Virus record (IMG/VR): IMGVR_UViG_3300027747_001991
Coordinates: 1 to 32,915 of that record
Direction: 5' to 3' (one strand)
DNA from: a virus
Length of the DNA stretch: 32,915 nucleotides
Part shown: piece after piece, positions 2,312 through 14,113 of the stretch
Position numbering within the stretch: the stretch's first letter is position 1
How the letters are laid out: each line of letters starts with the position of its first letter
Translations under genes and position numbers: made by a program
The notes under the pieces: generated by a model
The model's input: only the letters and a program-made list of their open reading frames with translations
What the model was told of the DNA's origin: nothing
Database searches by the model: none

Positions 2312-4318
2312 TTAAACCGTAACTGTTAGATTGGATATTGTTTTTGTCAAAGCCAAATTTCTGGATGATATTTGTGATAAAGGTTTTTCTGGAACACTTT
2401 CATCATTTTTAGCCATTAGAACATTATCTTTTTGTGTAGAACTTTGATTTGTAGGTGTATTTTTATTAATATTTAAATCTAGATTTGCCATCTGTTTCTG
2501 GTCAAGTGTATCATATATTTTATTGGTATTATCCACAGGTTCTGATTTTGCCATTGCTGTTTGAATATCTTGCGAATCATTACTTATAGGAGAAGTTAAA
2601 GATTTTTTATCCAATGCACCTAAATTAATAGATTTTATTACTTCTAAATCTTTACTCAAAGTTTCAACATTCAATCCATTATGGTTATATGTCCTAGTGT
2701 ATGTTCCATCAGAATTTAATTTCCATTTACCCATAAATCTTTTGCTTTGTGGGTCTTTAGGATTATATTCATATTCTTTTGGATTTATCCAATCATTATC
2801 TTTTTTATTATATACATAACCTCTGTTAACTATTTCTTTTTGGATTTCATCTTTTGACCAACCTGTTGGTAATTGATAATTATCAGGTACACCCCACTCA
2901 GCTGGAAATTTATTATTATCATTACTAACTGGAGTAGCAGATTGTTTACTTACATCTTGTGTTTTGTTGGTATCATTATTTTCTTCTCGAAATTTTTTTA
3001 ATTCTTTATCCAATTCTATTTGGTGTGTATCTCTTTTTTCTTCAAGGGATCGAATATTATCATAACTTCCATATTTGTTGGCGGACATACGTTTGTTACG
3101 GGCCTGAGAAATTTCGTCATTTAATGACTTTATAGTTGTCATACGATCCTGAATGTGTTGTGGCATAACTTCTTCTGTCGGTGGTTTGCCGTTTTCCCAT
3201 TTCTTAGATGGCCCAACTATATTTTGTACTGCATCAGTTACAACTTTCAATTTACTACCAAAATCTTTATTGCCTTTATCTTTTTCTGGATAATTACCCC
3301 AAACTTCTTTGTAAACTTCTCTTGTAGCTGCATATATGTCAATAGCACCGGAAGCTGCCATACCACCAGCAACTGCAAGTGGATGAAGTGTGAAATAAGG
3401 AACTGTGCCTATGCCAGCAGAAGCAGCGTGTAAAAAGGCACCATATAAATCACCATCCATAGCAGATTTGGCGGCCTCCCACATACCATAAGCAAGTGTC
3501 ACACCAGGAATAACTTTTGTTGCAGTAAATTTAGCAACACTACCAAGTATTTTTTTGGCAGCTACAACAGCGGTTGCTTCTTTGGCTGCTATTTCTGCAG
3601 CTGTTATAGAAACAGTTTCAGTTGCGGCTGTTGTAGTTGCTCTAGTAGTTGCAATAGCCGCTGCATTAACACCAGTTTTAGCTAGTGCTTTGCCTGCAGC
3701 TAATTTAATTTTATCTCTTAACGATTTAAATATATCTAATTTTTTCTTAGGTTTTTCTCCCTCACCACCACTCCCACCAGAAATTCCTGCCAACACTTTT
3801 AACATTTCATTGTGGCGTCTATCATCTGCCAGTTTATTGGATTCTTTAAAATTATTTTCTTTTTCTTGCAAAGTAACTTCTCTGTCATAACTTTTATTAA
3901 GAAACGTTAGTATTTTATTCAATACCGTTTTTATACCTTTGATATTGTCACTTTTATCATTTTTAGTTCTTTTAGGAGATTCTTCATCTCCATTATCTTG
4001 CATTTGTGATATTTGTGATATCTTGTCAAATATTGGCATAGCTCTGCCTGCAAAATATTCAATATCTTTCTTAGAACGACCAAGCATCTTACCAACCAAA
4101 GCAGGACCAAGGCGAGAACCACCAGTTAAAACTTTTGCAATATTCAATGGATCAAATTTTTCTTTAAAACCTTTTGAAACTGCTTTTGATTTTAAACTCA
4201 ATACATTCTTAAATCCTTCTTTGTATCCTTTACCAGCAATTAATTGGTCAGCAAATAAAGAACCAATAGATTGTTCTCTTATTCTACCTGCTTGTTGATA
4301 ATTTAACTCTTTAGCCAT
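2312..4318 (-). CDS. Large tail or hub protein with Ala/Gly-rich hydrophobic segment (tape-measure or ejected-protein candidate)
   Basis: 668 residues, last gene of the leftward unit, starting 3 nt after the stop of the M23 protein, so the two are probably translationally coupled. No enzyme motif is seen. In order: a basic N-terminal region (1-90); a low-complexity charged stretch (105-128); a charged helical segment (128-176); a Gly/Ser linker (178-190); an Ala/Thr-rich helix (207-255); a hydrophobic Ala/Gly-rich segment (256-332) that could contact membrane; and a polar C-terminal half with Asn-rich repeats. The N-terminal order of basic block, charged helix and linker resembles the neighbouring M23 protein. 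Such composition is common in tape-measure and ejected tail proteins. Its position after a gp26-family gene also fits a T4 gp29-like hub or tape measure. Function is inferred. Confidence 0.55.
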   Translation of the reverse strand: MAKELNYQQAGRIREQSIGSLFADQLIAGKGYKEGFKNVLSLKSKAVSKGFKEKFDPLNIAKVLTGGSRLGPALVGKMLGRSKKDIEYFAGRAMPIFDKISQISQMQDNGDEESPKRTKNDKSDNIKGIKTVLNKILTFLNKSYDREVTLQEKENNFKESNKLADDRRHNEMLKVLAGISGGSGGEGEKPKKKLDIFKSLRDKIKLAAGKALAKTGVNAAAIATTRATTTAATETVSITAAEIAAKEATAVVAAKKILGSVAKFTATKVIPGVTLAYGMWEAAKSAMDGDLYGAFLHAASAGIGTVPYFTLHPLAVAGGMAASGAIDIYAATREVYKEVWGNYPEKDKGNKDFGSKLKVVTDAVQNIVGPSKKWENGKPPTEEVMPQHIQDRMTTIKSLNDEISQARNKRMSANKYGSYDNIRSLEEKRDTHQIELDKELKKFREENNDTNKTQDVSKQSATPVSNDNNKFPAEWGVPDNYQLPTGWSKDEIQKEIVNRGYVYNKKDNDWINPKEYEYNPKDPQSKRFMGKWKLNSDGTYTRTYNHNGLNVETLSKDLEVIKSINLGALDKKSLTSPISNDSQDIQTAMAKSEPVDNTNKIYDTLDQKQMANLDLNINKNTPTNQSSTQKDNVLMAKNDESVPEKPLSQISSRNLALTKTISNLTVTV

Positions 4319-4321
4319 TTG

Positions 4322-6133
4322 TTATCCTAATTTCTGAGTATATGGATTATTATCGTCAACTTTTTCATTATTCATATTGATATTATTTTTCTTCATAATA
4401 ATTACATTTTGATTATTTGTTGTTTCACTTGAAGATGCAATCAAATCTTGTTTATAATTTTTATTTTCAAAAGACAATGTATCAACTGTGTCACCAATGT
4501 TATTTTCTAATGATGCAACAAACTTTGACTTACCAATTTTTTCCAATTTGTTTATTGTTTCTTTATCTTTAACAATTGTTTCTTTATTATCATTTATAAT
4601 ATACCAAAGTCCGTCAGTATTTTTTATTGCTTCTCCGGTCAATCCAATTGTTTTTAATTCTTTCGCATCAATTTTTGTTCCAGCTAAAAGACCATATGTA
4701 TTGAATATCCATCTTCTTTCGGCAGAGTTTTTTTTCTTTTGGTCAGTTACCAAAGTACCATCTTCATAATACCAATTACCTTTATAATCCCTTTGCAACT
4801 TATTTGGATCTACTTTAGAAAATGCTTTTGCTAAAAATCCAGAATAACCAAAGTCATTATCTTGTAATTGAACCTTTCCATCAGGCATAAGTTCAGGAAC
4901 TTTTGATGCAGAATTATCTACAGATGCAGTTGTAGGTGATACAGGTGATGCATTTTTGGGATTGACACTATTATTATCAACTGCTTCTTTTTTTGGAGGA
5001 GATTTTTGTTCTTCCTTGCGTTTATTCACAACTTCTGGTGGATTTAAAGTATATTCCATTTCTTCTTTACTAGGCTGTATTGATTTGCCTTGACTGTCAC
5101 GTACTCCAAAATGAAGGTGTGGATATTTGGAATGACCTGTGTTTCCTGTTTTTGCAATAAGAGTACCAGCACCAACCTTATCTCCTTTTTTAACAACAGA
5201 CGTATCACTCAAATGTAAGTATTCTCCATTACGACCATCATCATATTGAATTTTTATAAATTTTCCATTTTCGGGACTTTCATTAACTTCACTAACTGTA
5301 CCAGGTCCTTTTGAATATACTTTTGTTCCAACTGGAGCACGAAGGTCTACACCTTGATGATTTTCAGTTCTATTTGAATTATATGGATCTAATCTAGAAC
5401 CAAATCCACTTGTTACTGTAGCCGCAGTATAAGATACTGGTTCTGCCGTCTGAGTTTTTTCAATTTGTGCTGTAGTTTGTTGTGATGCATTTGCATTTTT
5501 TGGTGATGCAACAGGTGCTGTATTCGTTTCTTGATGTGACTGGCCAGGTAATCTACCACCAGGTATAGGCAAGATTGGTGGTTTGACTGGTGGTGTTCCA
5601 GGTGTTCCTGATGTAGAGGCTGGAATATTTGCAGTGTTTGCTTTTTCTTTTGGTTCTTCTTCTGATTTTTTAGGAACCAATCCCATTAAAGCTTTGATTA
5701 TTTGTTTATGTTTTCTATTTTTATCTTGATTTTGTTCTTGCAAATGATTTTTAGTCTCTTGATATTGTAATTTTCTATATGTATCAAGCTTAACCATTGC
5801 TTTATAAATCATACCTAAAAGTTCTTTAGGTGTAAGTTTTGTTTTTTTGGCTGTTTCTTCACTTTCATTTGATTCTTTTCGTGAAAAAAGTCCTAACAAA
5901 TTAAAGTGGCCACCTTCAGGTCCTTTATAACCAAAGTCGGATGAAGCTAATTTTAAGAGGCGACCACCAATGTCTTTCCATCCCATCTTTTTGGCATTTT
6001 GTTTAGTTTCTTCTTGTGGTTCAGGTGTTTCTTTAGGTTTATCGTTATTATCTTTAGGATTATTAGATTGAGTTTGAGGAGCAGCTGCTGGTTGAGCATT
6101 TTGTGTAGGATTTGATGTACTTCCTCTCGCCAT
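4322..6133 (-). CDS. Virion hub or tape-measure-like protein with M23 (LytM) peptidase domain
   Basis: 603 residues. The N-terminal 50 residues are Pro/Gln/Asn-rich. A charged helix covers about 98-150 and a Pro-rich linker about 160-235. Residues about 239-345 are a complete M23 zinc metallopeptidase domain: SGFGSRLDP, the HQGVD motif (His259, Asp263), YLHLS (His307) and the HLH motif (His339, His341). His259, Asp263 and His341 are the expected zinc ligands, with His307 and His339 catalytic. This family cuts peptide cross-bridges in peptidoglycan, so the protein probably opens the cell wall during DNA entry. The C-terminal 240 residues are unrecognised and end Asn-rich. The start follows AAAAGG by a short gap and lies 2 nt after the stop of the -1 frame described upstream. 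The enzyme call is firm; the virion location is inferred from neighbours. Confidence 0.8.
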   Translation of the reverse strand: MARGSTSNPTQNAQPAAAPQTQSNNPKDNNDKPKETPEPQEETKQNAKKMGWKDIGGRLLKLASSDFGYKGPEGGHFNLLGLFSRKESNESEETAKKTKLTPKELLGMIYKAMVKLDTYRKLQYQETKNHLQEQNQDKNRKHKQIIKALMGLVPKKSEEEPKEKANTANIPASTSGTPGTPPVKPPILPIPGGRLPGQSHQETNTAPVASPKNANASQQTTAQIEKTQTAEPVSYTAATVTSGFGSRLDPYNSNRTENHQGVDLRAPVGTKVYSKGPGTVSEVNESPENGKFIKIQYDDGRNGEYLHLSDTSVVKKGDKVGAGTLIAKTGNTGHSKYPHLHFGVRDSQGKSIQPSKEEMEYTLNPPEVVNKRKEEQKSPPKKEAVDNNSVNPKNASPVSPTTASVDNSASKVPELMPDGKVQLQDNDFGYSGFLAKAFSKVDPNKLQRDYKGNWYYEDGTLVTDQKKKNSAERRWIFNTYGLLAGTKIDAKELKTIGLTGEAIKNTDGLWYIINDNKETIVKDKETINKLEKIGKSKFVASLENNIGDTVDTLSFENKNYKQDLIASSSETTNNQNVIIMKKNNINMNNEKVDDNNPYTQKLG

Positions 6134-6135
6134 TT

Positions 6136-7055
6136 TTACCTTTTCATCCTTTCTTTTATCTTTTGATTTTCTTCCTCAATATACTGTATCAACATTGCAA
6201 CATATATTTCCCTTTCCCATGGCATCATATTATCTAATTCTGTCAAACTATACTTGTGATGTTGCATTAATGAGAAATTTGTTTTATAATGATTTCTCAA
6301 GTTATCATGGCGAAAGGTTATACGAAAAAACTTTCAAGTCCCTCCACCTCAATTACATGGTGGTAACTACATTTTTTACAAGTCATTTCAATTTTTTCTT
6401 TTAACTTTGGTAGATTGTTAAAGAATTCTTCTACTTTGGCAAATGATTCAGGTGGCATAGTTTCAACAAATTCAATCAATTCGTTAAGTGGTGTTTCATG
6501 TGAATAATAGAATTGGTCGCCGTCATAAATGTATTCAATGCTTTGAGCCAACATAACAAATGTCAGTTCATCTTCATTACTGTATTGCATAGAATCTTTA
6601 ATTATACCAAACTCCGGATATTTCAATTTGATTGATAAATTTTCATTCAATTTAATTTCATCAGAAACATCATCTTTCTTTTCAACTTTAACCTCTAAAA
6701 GGTTCAAAGAACTTTCCATAATATTTCGGCATTCATGTGTACCTTTATCGTCAGTCACTAGATTATTGCAACGATATTTCGACTCTACAACCTCACCTAC
6801 AGACTTTGCTCTAAGATGAATAAAGTAATATTCCACATCAATGATGGGCAATTTATCAATATCAATATTTTCAGTCAAAGTACAATTATAAAGAATATCA
6901 CGTATTGCAGAATGTACTGTTGCAGAATCATCACCTTCCATGGCCATCAAAAGATTTCTCTGTTCTTTGACTAAGAATGGACGATATTTAATTTTTTTCT
7001 TTGAAAGTGGTAACTCAACCTCATAAGTCGGCACATCAATTTTTGGTAAAGCCAT
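6136..7055 (-). CDS. Predicted -1 frameshift fusion of the gp26-family protein (GT-like tail assembly chaperone)
   Basis: Predicted product of 306 residues: the first 244 residues of the gp26-family protein, then 62 residues read in the -1 frame from 6324 to the TAA at 6136-6138. The extension has no stop from the slippery site onward and ends in a protein-like sequence: HHKYSLTELDNMMPWEREIY followed by a charged helix with EEENQKIKERMKR. This resembles the short second domain of tail-assembly chaperones made by frameshifting (lambda gpGT and equivalents), which bind the tape measure. Independent translation from the ATG at 6265-6267 (43 residues) is possible, but I see no good ribosome site before it, and an independent gene would not require the preceding 19 codons to be open. 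Frameshifting is inferred from sequence and is not demonstrated. Confidence 0.7.
6271..6345 (-). promoter_or_regulatory. Programmed -1 ribosomal frameshift signal
   Basis: Read on the minus strand: an internal Shine-Dalgarno-like GGAGG (6345-6341), 10 nt of spacer, then the slippery heptamer T TTT TTC (6330-6324) in the correct zero-frame phase (AGT TTT TTC). One codon (GTA) follows and then the zero-frame stop TAA (6320-6318). Downstream, TGAGAAAT (6299-6292) and ATTTCTCA (6278-6271) form a perfect 8-bp inverted repeat. The GGAGG spacing equals that of the known stimulator in E. coli dnaX. The hairpin starts 24 nt after the heptamer, farther than usual, so its part is uncertain. Confidence 0.7.
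6318..7055 (-). CDS. gp26: gp26-family baseplate hub / tail assembly protein
   Basis: 245 residues against 208 in T4 gp26, with the family's pattern of a beta-rich start (LPKIDVPTYEVELPLSKKK) followed by YRPFLVKEQRNLLMAMEGDD and a helical core. Four cysteines, Cys96, Cys109, Cys226 and Cys229 (the last two as CKKC), form a plausible zinc-binding set. T4 gp26 is genetically needed for hub assembly. The start is fixed by a strong AAGGAG (7061-7066 on the opposite strand), 5 nt before ATG. The gene sits between a tube-fold protein and the M23 protein. Its last codons carry a frameshift signal, so this zero-frame product is probably the major form, with the longer form made by slippage. This suggests a chaperone role comparable to lambda gpG; that point is inference. 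Confidence 0.8.
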   Translation of the reverse strand: MALPKIDVPTYEVELPLSKKKIKYRPFLVKEQRNLLMAMEGDDSATVHSAIRDILYNCTLTENIDIDKLPIIDVEYYFIHLRAKSVGEVVESKYRCNNLVTDDKGTHECRNIMESSLNLLEVKVEKKDDVSDEIKLNENLSIKLKYPEFGIIKDSMQYSNEDELTFVMLAQSIEYIYDGDQFYYSHETPLNELIEFVETMPPESFAKVEEFFNNLPKLKEKIEMTCKKCSYHHVIEVEGLESFFV

Positions 7056-11614: not shown

Positions 11615-11947
11615 ATGCAGAATTTTTTAGGTAAAGACAATTTTATTTGGTGGGTTGGCGTGATTGTAAACACATTCGACCCATTAGGCCTTGGCCGTTG
11701 TCAGGTGAGAATATTTGGTTGGCATGACGATGGCTCTCCCGAAGCGTTGCTTAAGATACCAGTAACAGATTTACCATGGGCTCTACCATTAGTGCCTATA
11801 AATGGCACTAAAAGTTTTTCAGCACCTGAATTGGACGATTGGGTTGTGGGTTTTTTCATGGATGGAATGGCAGGTCAATTTCCTATAATGATGGGAATGT
11901 TGCCTGGTTATAGAGCATCAAATCCATTTATTAAATCTTACAAATAA
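11615..11947 (+). CDS. gp5: gp5 N-terminal OB-fold domain as a separate protein
   Basis: 110 residues matching only the first domain of T4 gp5, the OB-fold that mounts the spike on gp27. The diagnostic stretch is WWVGVIVNTFDPLGLGRCQV followed by RIFGWH, which lines up with WFVGVVEDRMDPLKLGRVRV of T4, and then LPWALPLVPI and GTKSFSAPELDDWVVGFFMD. The T4 protein continues into a lysozyme domain and a beta-helix needle (575 residues in all). Here translation stops after IKSYK with a TAA and a new gene begins 12 nt later. The needle is encoded separately at 13196. No lysozyme catalytic sequence is seen in either piece. A simple frameshift is unlikely since the needle follows a full 407-codon gene. 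Confidence 0.85.
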   Translation: MQNFLGKDNFIWWVGVIVNTFDPLGLGRCQVRIFGWHDDGSPEALLKIPVTDLPWALPLVPINGTKSFSAPELDDWVVGFFMDGMAGQFPIMMGMLPGYRASNPFIKSYK

Positions 11948-11958
11948 TAGGAATAAAA

Positions 11959-13182
11959 ATGATACCAACGACAACAACAACTGGTGCAGAGGTAGTTTCG
12001 AGCGTAGTTTCAGCTCCAGTAACCTCTCAAACTACTATTACTAGTACGAATTTGGGGTCACCATCTACAACAACTACTACTACTACTACAACACCATTAT
12101 TGTCACCATCCGAATCAATCGCTAATGCAATTGCAGGAGGCCAAGCAAGCCAAGGACTCGTAAATGCGACAACAACTGGTTATGGACAAACTCAAGCAAA
12201 CATTTATGGTAGTCCAACAGCAGCAAGCCAATCAGCAGCACAAACATTTATAAATGAAACCAATAGAAACATATTAACAGCAGTAAATCTTCCAAAAAGT
12301 GTAATTAAAGATGGAAAAGTTGTACCAGTAATTGATCCTTATTCTACTTTCTATACATTTAAAGTTGGTGTACAGTCAACTTCTGCTTTATCCAGAGGAT
12401 ATGTAAAAGGTTCTATCATAGATTTGTTAAATGGTAATTTAGACCATGTTTGTGACTTTAAATTCATTTTTCCTGACCTTAATTCAATTCTGGCACAAGT
12501 AGGTTTAGTGAATCCAGTAACTGCTATAAGAGATGCAATTAAAAATGCAAAATTAAAAGCCACTAATACATTGAGAAAACTTATACAGGAAGCTGTTACA
12601 GCAATAAGAACTGCATTAAATGCCACTATTACTGTTTTGGGTTTGGATGCAACCGGAATATTTTCGTTCAATATTTCTGCGTTAAAAGCAATTGCAGCAC
12701 AAATTAATTCAGCAGTAAAAAGAGTTGCTGCTGCAGTTGAAGCTGTTTTAGAATATGTATTTCTTGCTCAACAGATTATACAATTAATCAATTGGATTAA
12801 AACGCTACCAGCAAAATTACAACAACTATTACAAAATTGTTTGAATCAATTTGGTGCTTCAATAACACAAGTTGCAAATCAAATTAAATCTATACCAGAC
12901 CAAATTTCTAGTTTGACAACTTCTCAACTTACTAATATCGCCAATGAATTTACACAAGCTGGTCAATTAGCATTGGATGCAGCAAATATCAATACAACAA
13001 ATAGTAGTATGCCAGATGCTGTTGCACAAGCTTTTAGCCAACCTGATAGTGTTACAACAGCCATGTCATCAACTGAGACTATTGAAACCAGCTTAAAAGA
13101 ACATTTGGCAGAAAAACAATCAATAATTTCAAATTATACTGCCACGTTAATGGACCCTAAAACAATGACAAAATCACCATGA
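11959..13182 (+). CDS. Uncharacterised protein encoded between the gp5 halves
   Basis: 407 residues with no family I recognise. The first 60 residues are Thr/Ser-rich and include a nine-Thr run (37-45). Residues 60-100 are Ala/Gln/Asn-rich. Residues about 115-175 look like a compact alpha/beta region (IDPYSTFYTFKVGVQ, then HVCDFKFIFPDLNSILAQ). From about 180 to 330 there are repeated amphipathic helices rich in Ala, Ile, Leu and Gln (VKRVAAAVEAVLEYVFLAQQ, ending LIQLINWIKTLPAKLQ-type sequence), which suggests coiled coils or a helical bundle. The C-terminus is polar. It has a good ribosome site (AGGAATAAAA). Its place between the OB domain and the needle suggests a hub-associated part, but nothing in the sequence proves this. 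Confidence 0.7.
   Translation: MIPTTTTTGAEVVSSVVSAPVTSQTTITSTNLGSPSTTTTTTTTTPLLSPSESIANAIAGGQASQGLVNATTTGYGQTQANIYGSPTAASQSAAQTFINETNRNILTAVNLPKSVIKDGKVVPVIDPYSTFYTFKVGVQSTSALSRGYVKGSIIDLLNGNLDHVCDFKFIFPDLNSILAQVGLVNPVTAIRDAIKNAKLKATNTLRKLIQEAVTAIRTALNATITVLGLDATGIFSFNISALKAIAAQINSAVKRVAAAVEAVLEYVFLAQQIIQLINWIKTLPAKLQQLLQNCLNQFGASITQVANQIKSIPDQISSLTTSQLTNIANEFTQAGQLALDAANINTTNSSMPDAVAQAFSQPDSVTTAMSSTETIETSLKEHLAEKQSIISNYTATLMDPKTMTKSP
12067..12093 (+). repeat. Thr-codon microsatellite, mostly (ACT)n
   Basis: Nine consecutive Thr codons, mainly ACT and ACA, give a trinucleotide run inside the linker of the 407-aa protein. Gain or loss of units would stay in frame, so length could vary between relatives. 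It may be a simple flexible linker. Confidence 0.7.
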
Positions 13183-13195
13183 AAGCTTTAATATA

Positions 13196-14113
13196 ATGTC
13201 ACATGAACAATATAAACCAGATTTTGTAACAGCTTGGACAGAACCGGAATCTGCTGCAAATACAAATTATCAACCAGTTTATCCATATAATAATATCACC
13301 GCAACAAGAGCCGGACATTCATTTGAGATGGATGACACTCCAACAAGAGAAAGAATTCGCCTTCAACACGGAAAAGGAACATTCATTGAAATGCATCCTA
13401 CAGGTGAATATGTTCATAAAATTGTTGGTAATGGTTATTCAATAACTTTAGGTGACCACAATATTAAGATTGGTATTGATGATGGCAACCTTGCTAAAAA
13501 ATTAAACATCACGGTTTATGGTGATTGTTATATGAATGTCAAAGGTGATAAAATTGAACAAATTGATGGTAACTTTGAACAACACATCAAAGGACATTAC
13601 ACACAAACAGTTGAAAAAACATCTACAGTAACTTCTTTTGGTGATATGCAAATTAATGGTGGTTCTTCTTTAACTGGAAGTTTGGAAATTAATTCATCAA
13701 CTTCTGTTGTTATGGGTGCGGACTTAGTAGTCGGTGGAGAAATTATGTGTGCCAAGCTTGTTGCTTTAAGTCGTGTAGATGCCGGTTCTGGAATGAGTAT
13801 TGGTGCTTCAGGACTACAAGCAGTAGCAGCAATCGCAGGTTTACCAGGTGGAAATGCAGGATTAGTTGTACATGGTACTGGTGGTATTGGTGTTGGATTA
13901 CCTGTAGCCGTTCCTGGTAGTATTACCTGTGTCGGTCCTATTACGTCTTACACAATAATGTCAGCAACTTATTCATCCTCAATAATATCAGGATCAATTC
14001 TAAAAAGTGACATTGTTAACTCAATTTTGAGAAAATTACACTTTCACATTGCTCCGCTAGGTGCTACATCACCTTGGGTAGGTACCGGAGAAACTAAAGC
14101 ATCATTCTCTTAA
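13196..14113 (+). CDS. gp5C: gp5 C-terminal beta-helix needle with HxH tip motif
   Basis: 305 residues matching the last part of T4 gp5, the trimeric membrane-piercing needle. The junction sequence FEMDDTPTRERIRLQHGKGT and EMHPTGEYVHKIVGN lines up with EFDDTPGQERYRLVHPTGTY of T4. Residues about 107-140 contain at least four VxGxxxxx-type octads (VYGDCYMN, VKGDKIEQ, IDGNFEQH, IKGHYTQT), as expected of the triple-stranded beta-helix. The next part is Gly/Ser/Val-rich. Near the C-terminus LHFHIAPLGATSPW contains His282-x-His284, which resembles the iron-binding tip of P2 gpV-type spikes. In T4 the needle is released from gp5 by proteolysis; here it is a separate gene. The ribosome site before ATG is weak (GAAAGC at distance). 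Confidence 0.85.
   Translation: MSHEQYKPDFVTAWTEPESAANTNYQPVYPYNNITATRAGHSFEMDDTPTRERIRLQHGKGTFIEMHPTGEYVHKIVGNGYSITLGDHNIKIGIDDGNLAKKLNITVYGDCYMNVKGDKIEQIDGNFEQHIKGHYTQTVEKTSTVTSFGDMQINGGSSLTGSLEINSSTSVVMGADLVVGGEIMCAKLVALSRVDAGSGMSIGASGLQAVAAIAGLPGGNAGLVVHGTGGIGVGLPVAVPGSITCVGPITSYTIMSATYSSSIISGSILKSDIVNSILRKLHFHIAPLGATSPWVGTGETKASFS

Follow-up and report, generated by a model that had tools for sequence, protein, structure and literature searches.

The end of a gp26-family gene in a T4-like virus raises the question of whether two proteins are made there from one gene, through a ribosome that slips back one base shortly before the stop codon. The gene lies in a 32,915-base virus record, analyzed whole and referred to here as the window, which carries a T4-like structural module composed of an ssDNA-binding protein, tail tube, DNA end protector, head closure, tube cap and baseplate wedge proteins. 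The 245-aa gp26 matched profiles PF12322 (E=8e-56) and phrog_150 (E=9e-61) as a whole protein, and frame 0 closes with AGT TTT TTC GTA TAA, the stop lying 10 nt past the start of the heptamer T_TTT_TTC. Frameshifting is reportedly conserved in several groups of T4-like phages, and T4 is said to use genes 26 and 51. We conclude that a one-base backward slip of the ribosome is very probable where gene 26 ends and would yield a second, longer chaperone. As a whole, the locus is read with high confidence as coding for the two tail-assembly chaperones of a T4-like myophage, gp26 and a gp26-gp51 fusion produced by a -1 frameshift (Table 1).

Table 1. Features of the gp26-gp51 locus in the window
Feature	Positions	Strand	Basis
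gp26-family gene, short chaperone form (TAC-N), 245 aa	6318..7055	-	PF12322, phrog_150, AlphaFold model
Internal Shine-Dalgarno-like GGAGG, 10 nt upstream of heptamer, probable stimulator	6341..6345	-	anti-SD pairing
Slippery heptamer T_TTT_TTC in X_XXY_YYZ phase	6324..6330	-	sequence, conservation, frozen synonymous sites
Frame-0 stop TAA, end of short product	6318..6320	-	sequence
-1 extension, TAC-C = gp51 domain, 62 codons + stop	6136..6324	-	phrog_634, pN/pS
8-bp inverted repeat (6299-6292 / 6278-6271), 24 nt past heptamer; judged no stimulator	6271..6299	-	folding z
Two large downstream genes (603 aa with M23 peptidase; 668 aa), expected tape-measure place	2312..6133	-	position

The sequence-only reading of this DNA had described the gene end with its in-phase heptamer, a GGAGG exactly 10 nt upstream and a -1 frame of 62 codons giving products of 245 and 306 residues, and all of these were found as described. 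Most ribosomes would stop at the TAA and release gp26 (TAC-N). A minority would pause over the internal GGAGG and, after a -1 slip on T_TTT_TTC, read 62 more codons into the gp51 domain, yielding a 306-aa gp26-gp51 fusion (TAC-NC). By analogy with G/GT of lambda, both products would cover the tape-measure protein and bring in tube subunits while the tail is being assembled.

Relatives were gathered by searches with the gp26 protein and T4 gp51 in IMG/VR and phage records, giving 279 loci for which the heptamer was no selection criterion. An in-phase T6 run was present in all but 3 of the 248 loci of the window, S-PM2 and Mosig groups. Two of the exceptions, L274 and L288, are loci of the T4 type with no frameshift, and in the third, L002, a premature stop interrupts the gp26 frame upstream; none was retained as a counter-example. 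Within the three frameshift groups no intact relative lacked an in-phase T6[C/T/G], and the run was also found in Cr30, phiM7, AS-zj, VmeM-32, phi-Grn1/KVP40/D481, RL38J1 and Mendera. A further candidate exception, IME-SM1 (NC_054952, L281:2180-2330), has five T by a 1-nt deletion relative to other Menderavirus records such as Mendera (L291), which has six. The shorter run is probably a sequencing error and, because the record is one base short, its annotated gp26 extends to 280 aa.

Among 166 dereplicated loci the heptamer was TTTTTTC in 147, TTTTTTT in 18 and TTTTTTG in 1, and the distance from its start to the frame-0 stop was 10 nt in 136, 7 in 14, 31 in 15 and 13 in 1. The synonymous sites of the heptamer were frozen across this set: the base ahead of the two Phe codons was T in 166 of 166 loci (103 expected given the encoded amino acid) and the first Phe codon was TTT in 166 of 166 (123 expected on the same basis), counts that are inflated by relatedness and come from a set itself defined by the T6 run. 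This definition left out almost nothing within the window, S-PM2 and Mosig groups.

In the window the -1 frame stays open for 62 codons past the heptamer, up to a TAA at 6138-6136, so the fused product would be 306 aa long, with SFFRITFR as the predicted junction, the same peptide that the sequence-only reading had given. A run of 62 open codons arose by chance in 13 of 5000 dinucleotide shuffles of the -1 segment. The -1 tail was conserved across the 166 dereplicated relatives and matched phrog_634 (gp51, annotated as "baseplate hub assembly catalyst") at E=3e-28, which puts a name to an end previously noted only as domain-like. The public records of S-WAM1 (L083), vB_VmeM-32 (L280) and SUMAE (L287) each contain a -1 gp51-like domain that carries no annotation.

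Alternatively, gp51 could be a separate small gene translated from its own start codon, through coupling or reinitiation past the gp26 stop, which is how GenBank annotates the cyanophages. It is annotated from an ATG right behind the gp26 stop in S-PM2 and P-SSM2, an ATG overlaps that stop in Mendera and Limestone-type phages, and the Shine-Dalgarno (SD)-like GGAGG might serve a start codon. However, no start codon was present between the opening of the -1 frame and codon 17 in 84 of the 166 loci, and these start-less codons were still conserved at the protein level. Similar observations were made in the window's own clade, comprising 41 loci labelled "freshwater" after the nearest IMG/VR relatives (a label that is an impression) and having a gp26 about 35-37% identical to that of cyanophage. 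ATG, GTG and TTG were absent from the first 18 -1 codons in 31 of the 41 members, and purifying selection was strong, with a pN/pS of 0.08 for -1 codons 4-17 compared with 1.52 and 1.22 in the other two frames; the overall evidence for the extension was a pN/pS of 0.08-0.10 in the -1 frame. The selection and the missing start codons together indicate that conserved -1 residues start where translation can only come from gp26. Moreover, conserved homology of the tail begins already at the heptamer, reinitiation has no need of frozen synonymous sites in that heptamer, and the T4 counterpart is one full-length fusion. A separate gene was, therefore, considered improbable as an account of the locus, although -1 codon 8 of the window is a TTG and codon 19 an ATG, and some separate gp51 fragment could also arise.

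The proposal that a programmed -1 frameshift yields a short and a long product, as in G/GT, was supported, as was an SD-like stimulator. On the DNA evidence, the frameshift signal is real and strongly conserved, and the -1 frame is translated from the heptamer on; the frameshift event and its efficiency we infer.

Stimulatory elements were examined on both sides of the heptamer. The anti-SD duplex at the window site was -10.6 kcal/mol, against -6.4 in synonymous resamples, and the mean over the 166 loci was -6.81 against -5.29 kcal/mol. GAG codons (z=6.6) and GGR codons (z=9.5) were over-used at this position, and some SD-like core was present in 145 of 166 relatives. Exact GGAGG was found in just 38 of 166 and was rejected as a strict requirement. 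Part of its GG encodes an invariant Gly of a protein motif, which T4 gp26 keeps as well (GLKEFF). The upstream SD-like element is, as judged from codon choice, real and favoured at synonymous sites, and it is a probable stimulator. Conservation in relatives, which the sequence-only reading had proposed as a check, was found for the heptamer, its synonymous sites and the -1 frame but not for the exact GGAGG.

That reading had also pointed to an 8-bp inverted repeat downstream. The repeat exists, but in the window it folds no better than chance (z=+0.57, with 136 of 200 shuffles as good), and no hairpin was detected in the 45 nt after the heptamer in the window's clade (mean z=+0.63 over 41 members); the repeat was, therefore, rejected as a stimulator. 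The comparison drawn with dnaX of E. coli was accordingly borne out in part. An SD-like element lies about 10 nt upstream of the heptamer in both, and its pairing in the window exceeds synonymous expectation, whereas dnaX combines A_AAA_AAG with a downstream hairpin and the window has T_TTT_TTC with no stem-loop beyond chance.

Marine relatives often have a hairpin 4-6 nt past the heptamer, with a mean z of -2.2 in the S-PM2 group and -1.5 in the Mosig group (controls, +0.4 and 0.0, respectively). Strong hairpins of differing sequence but near-identical register were seen in coding DNA at L081, L144, L151, L164, L214 and other marine loci.

Lineages without a canonical heptamer were also found. 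A TAC-C-like domain occurs in the -1 frame after gp26 in Ackermannviridae (L086:2220-2405, L253-L267, L284 and L290) and in Vibrio phages K369 (L286) and SUMAE (L287), and the stop is preceded in all of these by just (A/C)TTTTC. The -1 domains of Mutine and K369 matched phrog_9633 and, weakly, phrog_634; that of SUMAE gave no profile match. A single-tRNA slip on T_TTC is a possible -1 route in these phages. Reinitiation is another possibility in Agtrevirus and Limestonevirus, where the gene ends in TAATG, and less so in Kuttervirus (TAATT), whose gene end reads GATTTTCATTTAA.

The remaining explanation, that the fusion arises from slippage of RNA polymerase rather than of the ribosome on the T6 run, is less probable still: the conserved core is indeed a homopolymer run, but polymerase slippage usually needs runs of about nine or more A/T, which T6 falls below, it has no need of an SD-like element at a fixed distance or of a hairpin 4-6 nt downstream, and Ackermannviridae retain the -1 domain with just four T.

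T4 gp26 and gp51 are encoded by separate, divergent genes with no frameshift. In profile-profile comparisons, T4 gp51 (249 aa) matched the whole gp26-gp51 fusion over 240 columns (P=99.1, E=1e-18), whereas eight other T4 proteins reached at most 0.6. The gp26 profile matched the N-terminal 205 residues of T4 gp51 (P=96.8), the -1 domain matched its C-terminus (P=97.2, E=4.7e-11), and PHROG 150 matches both T4 gp26 and gp51. By homology, T4 encodes the two products as paralogous genes, gene 26 being the counterpart of the window's short form and gene 51, a permanently fused homologue, that of the whole fusion; the window has instead one gene with a -1 signal. That the long form exists in T4 as a separate paralogous gene had been missed in the sequence-only reading. 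Cyanophage gp51 has been described as lacking the first ~200 residues and gp51 as missing in Aeh1 (Sullivan et al. 2010, PMC3037559). A long form that is a gp26-gp51 fusion would explain the ~200-residue gap, as gp26 would supply the missing part.

Stimulators of the frameshift may, on these comparisons, have turned over within one homologous gene, a proposal for which we judge the balance of probability to be even. In marine phages the stimulator would be a hairpin 4-6 nt past T_TTT_TTC, the window's clade would have dropped the hairpin and rely on the heptamer and the SD-like element, T4 would have a second gene instead, and Ackermannviridae would have the -1 domain without a canonical heptamer. 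The gp26-gp51 family also offers a natural series in which to study the gain and loss of frameshift stimulators.

In databases, gp51 is still entered as a gene of its own in cyanophages and relatives. The correct product would, on the homology described above, be a fusion of gp26 and gp51 that has full-length T4 gp51 as its homologue, and getting the annotation right matters to structural and proteomic studies of phages that are among the commonest in water.

The sequence-only reading had implied that such a frameshift would be new for relatives of T4 gp26. This does not hold, as Vladimirov, Gautam and Davidson (2022, Virology 566:9-15) assigned frameshifted chaperones to T4-like phages and named genes 26/51 as the tail-assembly chaperones. 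Their work is cited by PMC10885494 on T4-like phages in which the short and long forms are separate genes, and by PMC12846349 on the poly-T -1 signals that TAC-N genes of this phage group contain. Because frameshifting in T4-like phages was published in 2022, the window locus is no discovery; it is a well-supported new example. The protein families, the short/long logic and, as cited by PMC12846349, the poly-T -1 signal are common to those phages and the window; the window's clade differs in having no downstream hairpin while retaining the SD-like element.

T4 gp26 and gp51 have been listed as hub assembly chaperones (PMC3004832). The window has the G/GT type of layout, in which a short ORF runs into an overlapping -1 extension coding for a C-terminal domain. 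The slippery sequence of lambda G/GT, a member of the dsDNA-phage family of Xu, Hendrix and Duda (2004), differs from that of the window. When the AlphaFold model of the window gp26 (pLDDT 87.6) was compared with the PDB, 2ob9, the tail assembly chaperone of HK97, ranked first and fourth, the top match having a probability of 0.47 and an E value of 0.9, which is below significance. Other fold matches mostly had probabilities of 0.06 or less, with 0.25 for the uncharacterised protein 3fgx. Likeness of the modelled gp26 to HK97 2ob9 is only suggestive, and no significant sequence or fold match of gp26 to lambda-type or HK97 chaperones was obtained. A model of T4-type gp51 gave no HK97-chaperone-like fold match, and a sequence search of solved structures with gp26 and gp51 gave no match. 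A chaperone role in the window phage would thus follow from family and layout, as the E value of the HK97 match is near 1 and the gp51 model gave none.

Beyond the -1 stop, blastp and hhalign comparisons of the 603- and 668-aa proteins with gp29 and annotated tape measures gave no match; the matching gene is named tape measure by the depositors of Cr30 and HTVC008M. Hub/lysozyme profile (gp5-type) matches in the window fall on two separate ORFs (11615-11947 and 13196-14113) with an unassigned 407-aa ORF between them (11959-13182). The 603-aa protein (M23; 4322-6133) and the 668-aa protein (2312-4318) have a weakly similar stretch in common (25.7% identity, E=6e-4), which suggests partial paralogy of the two.
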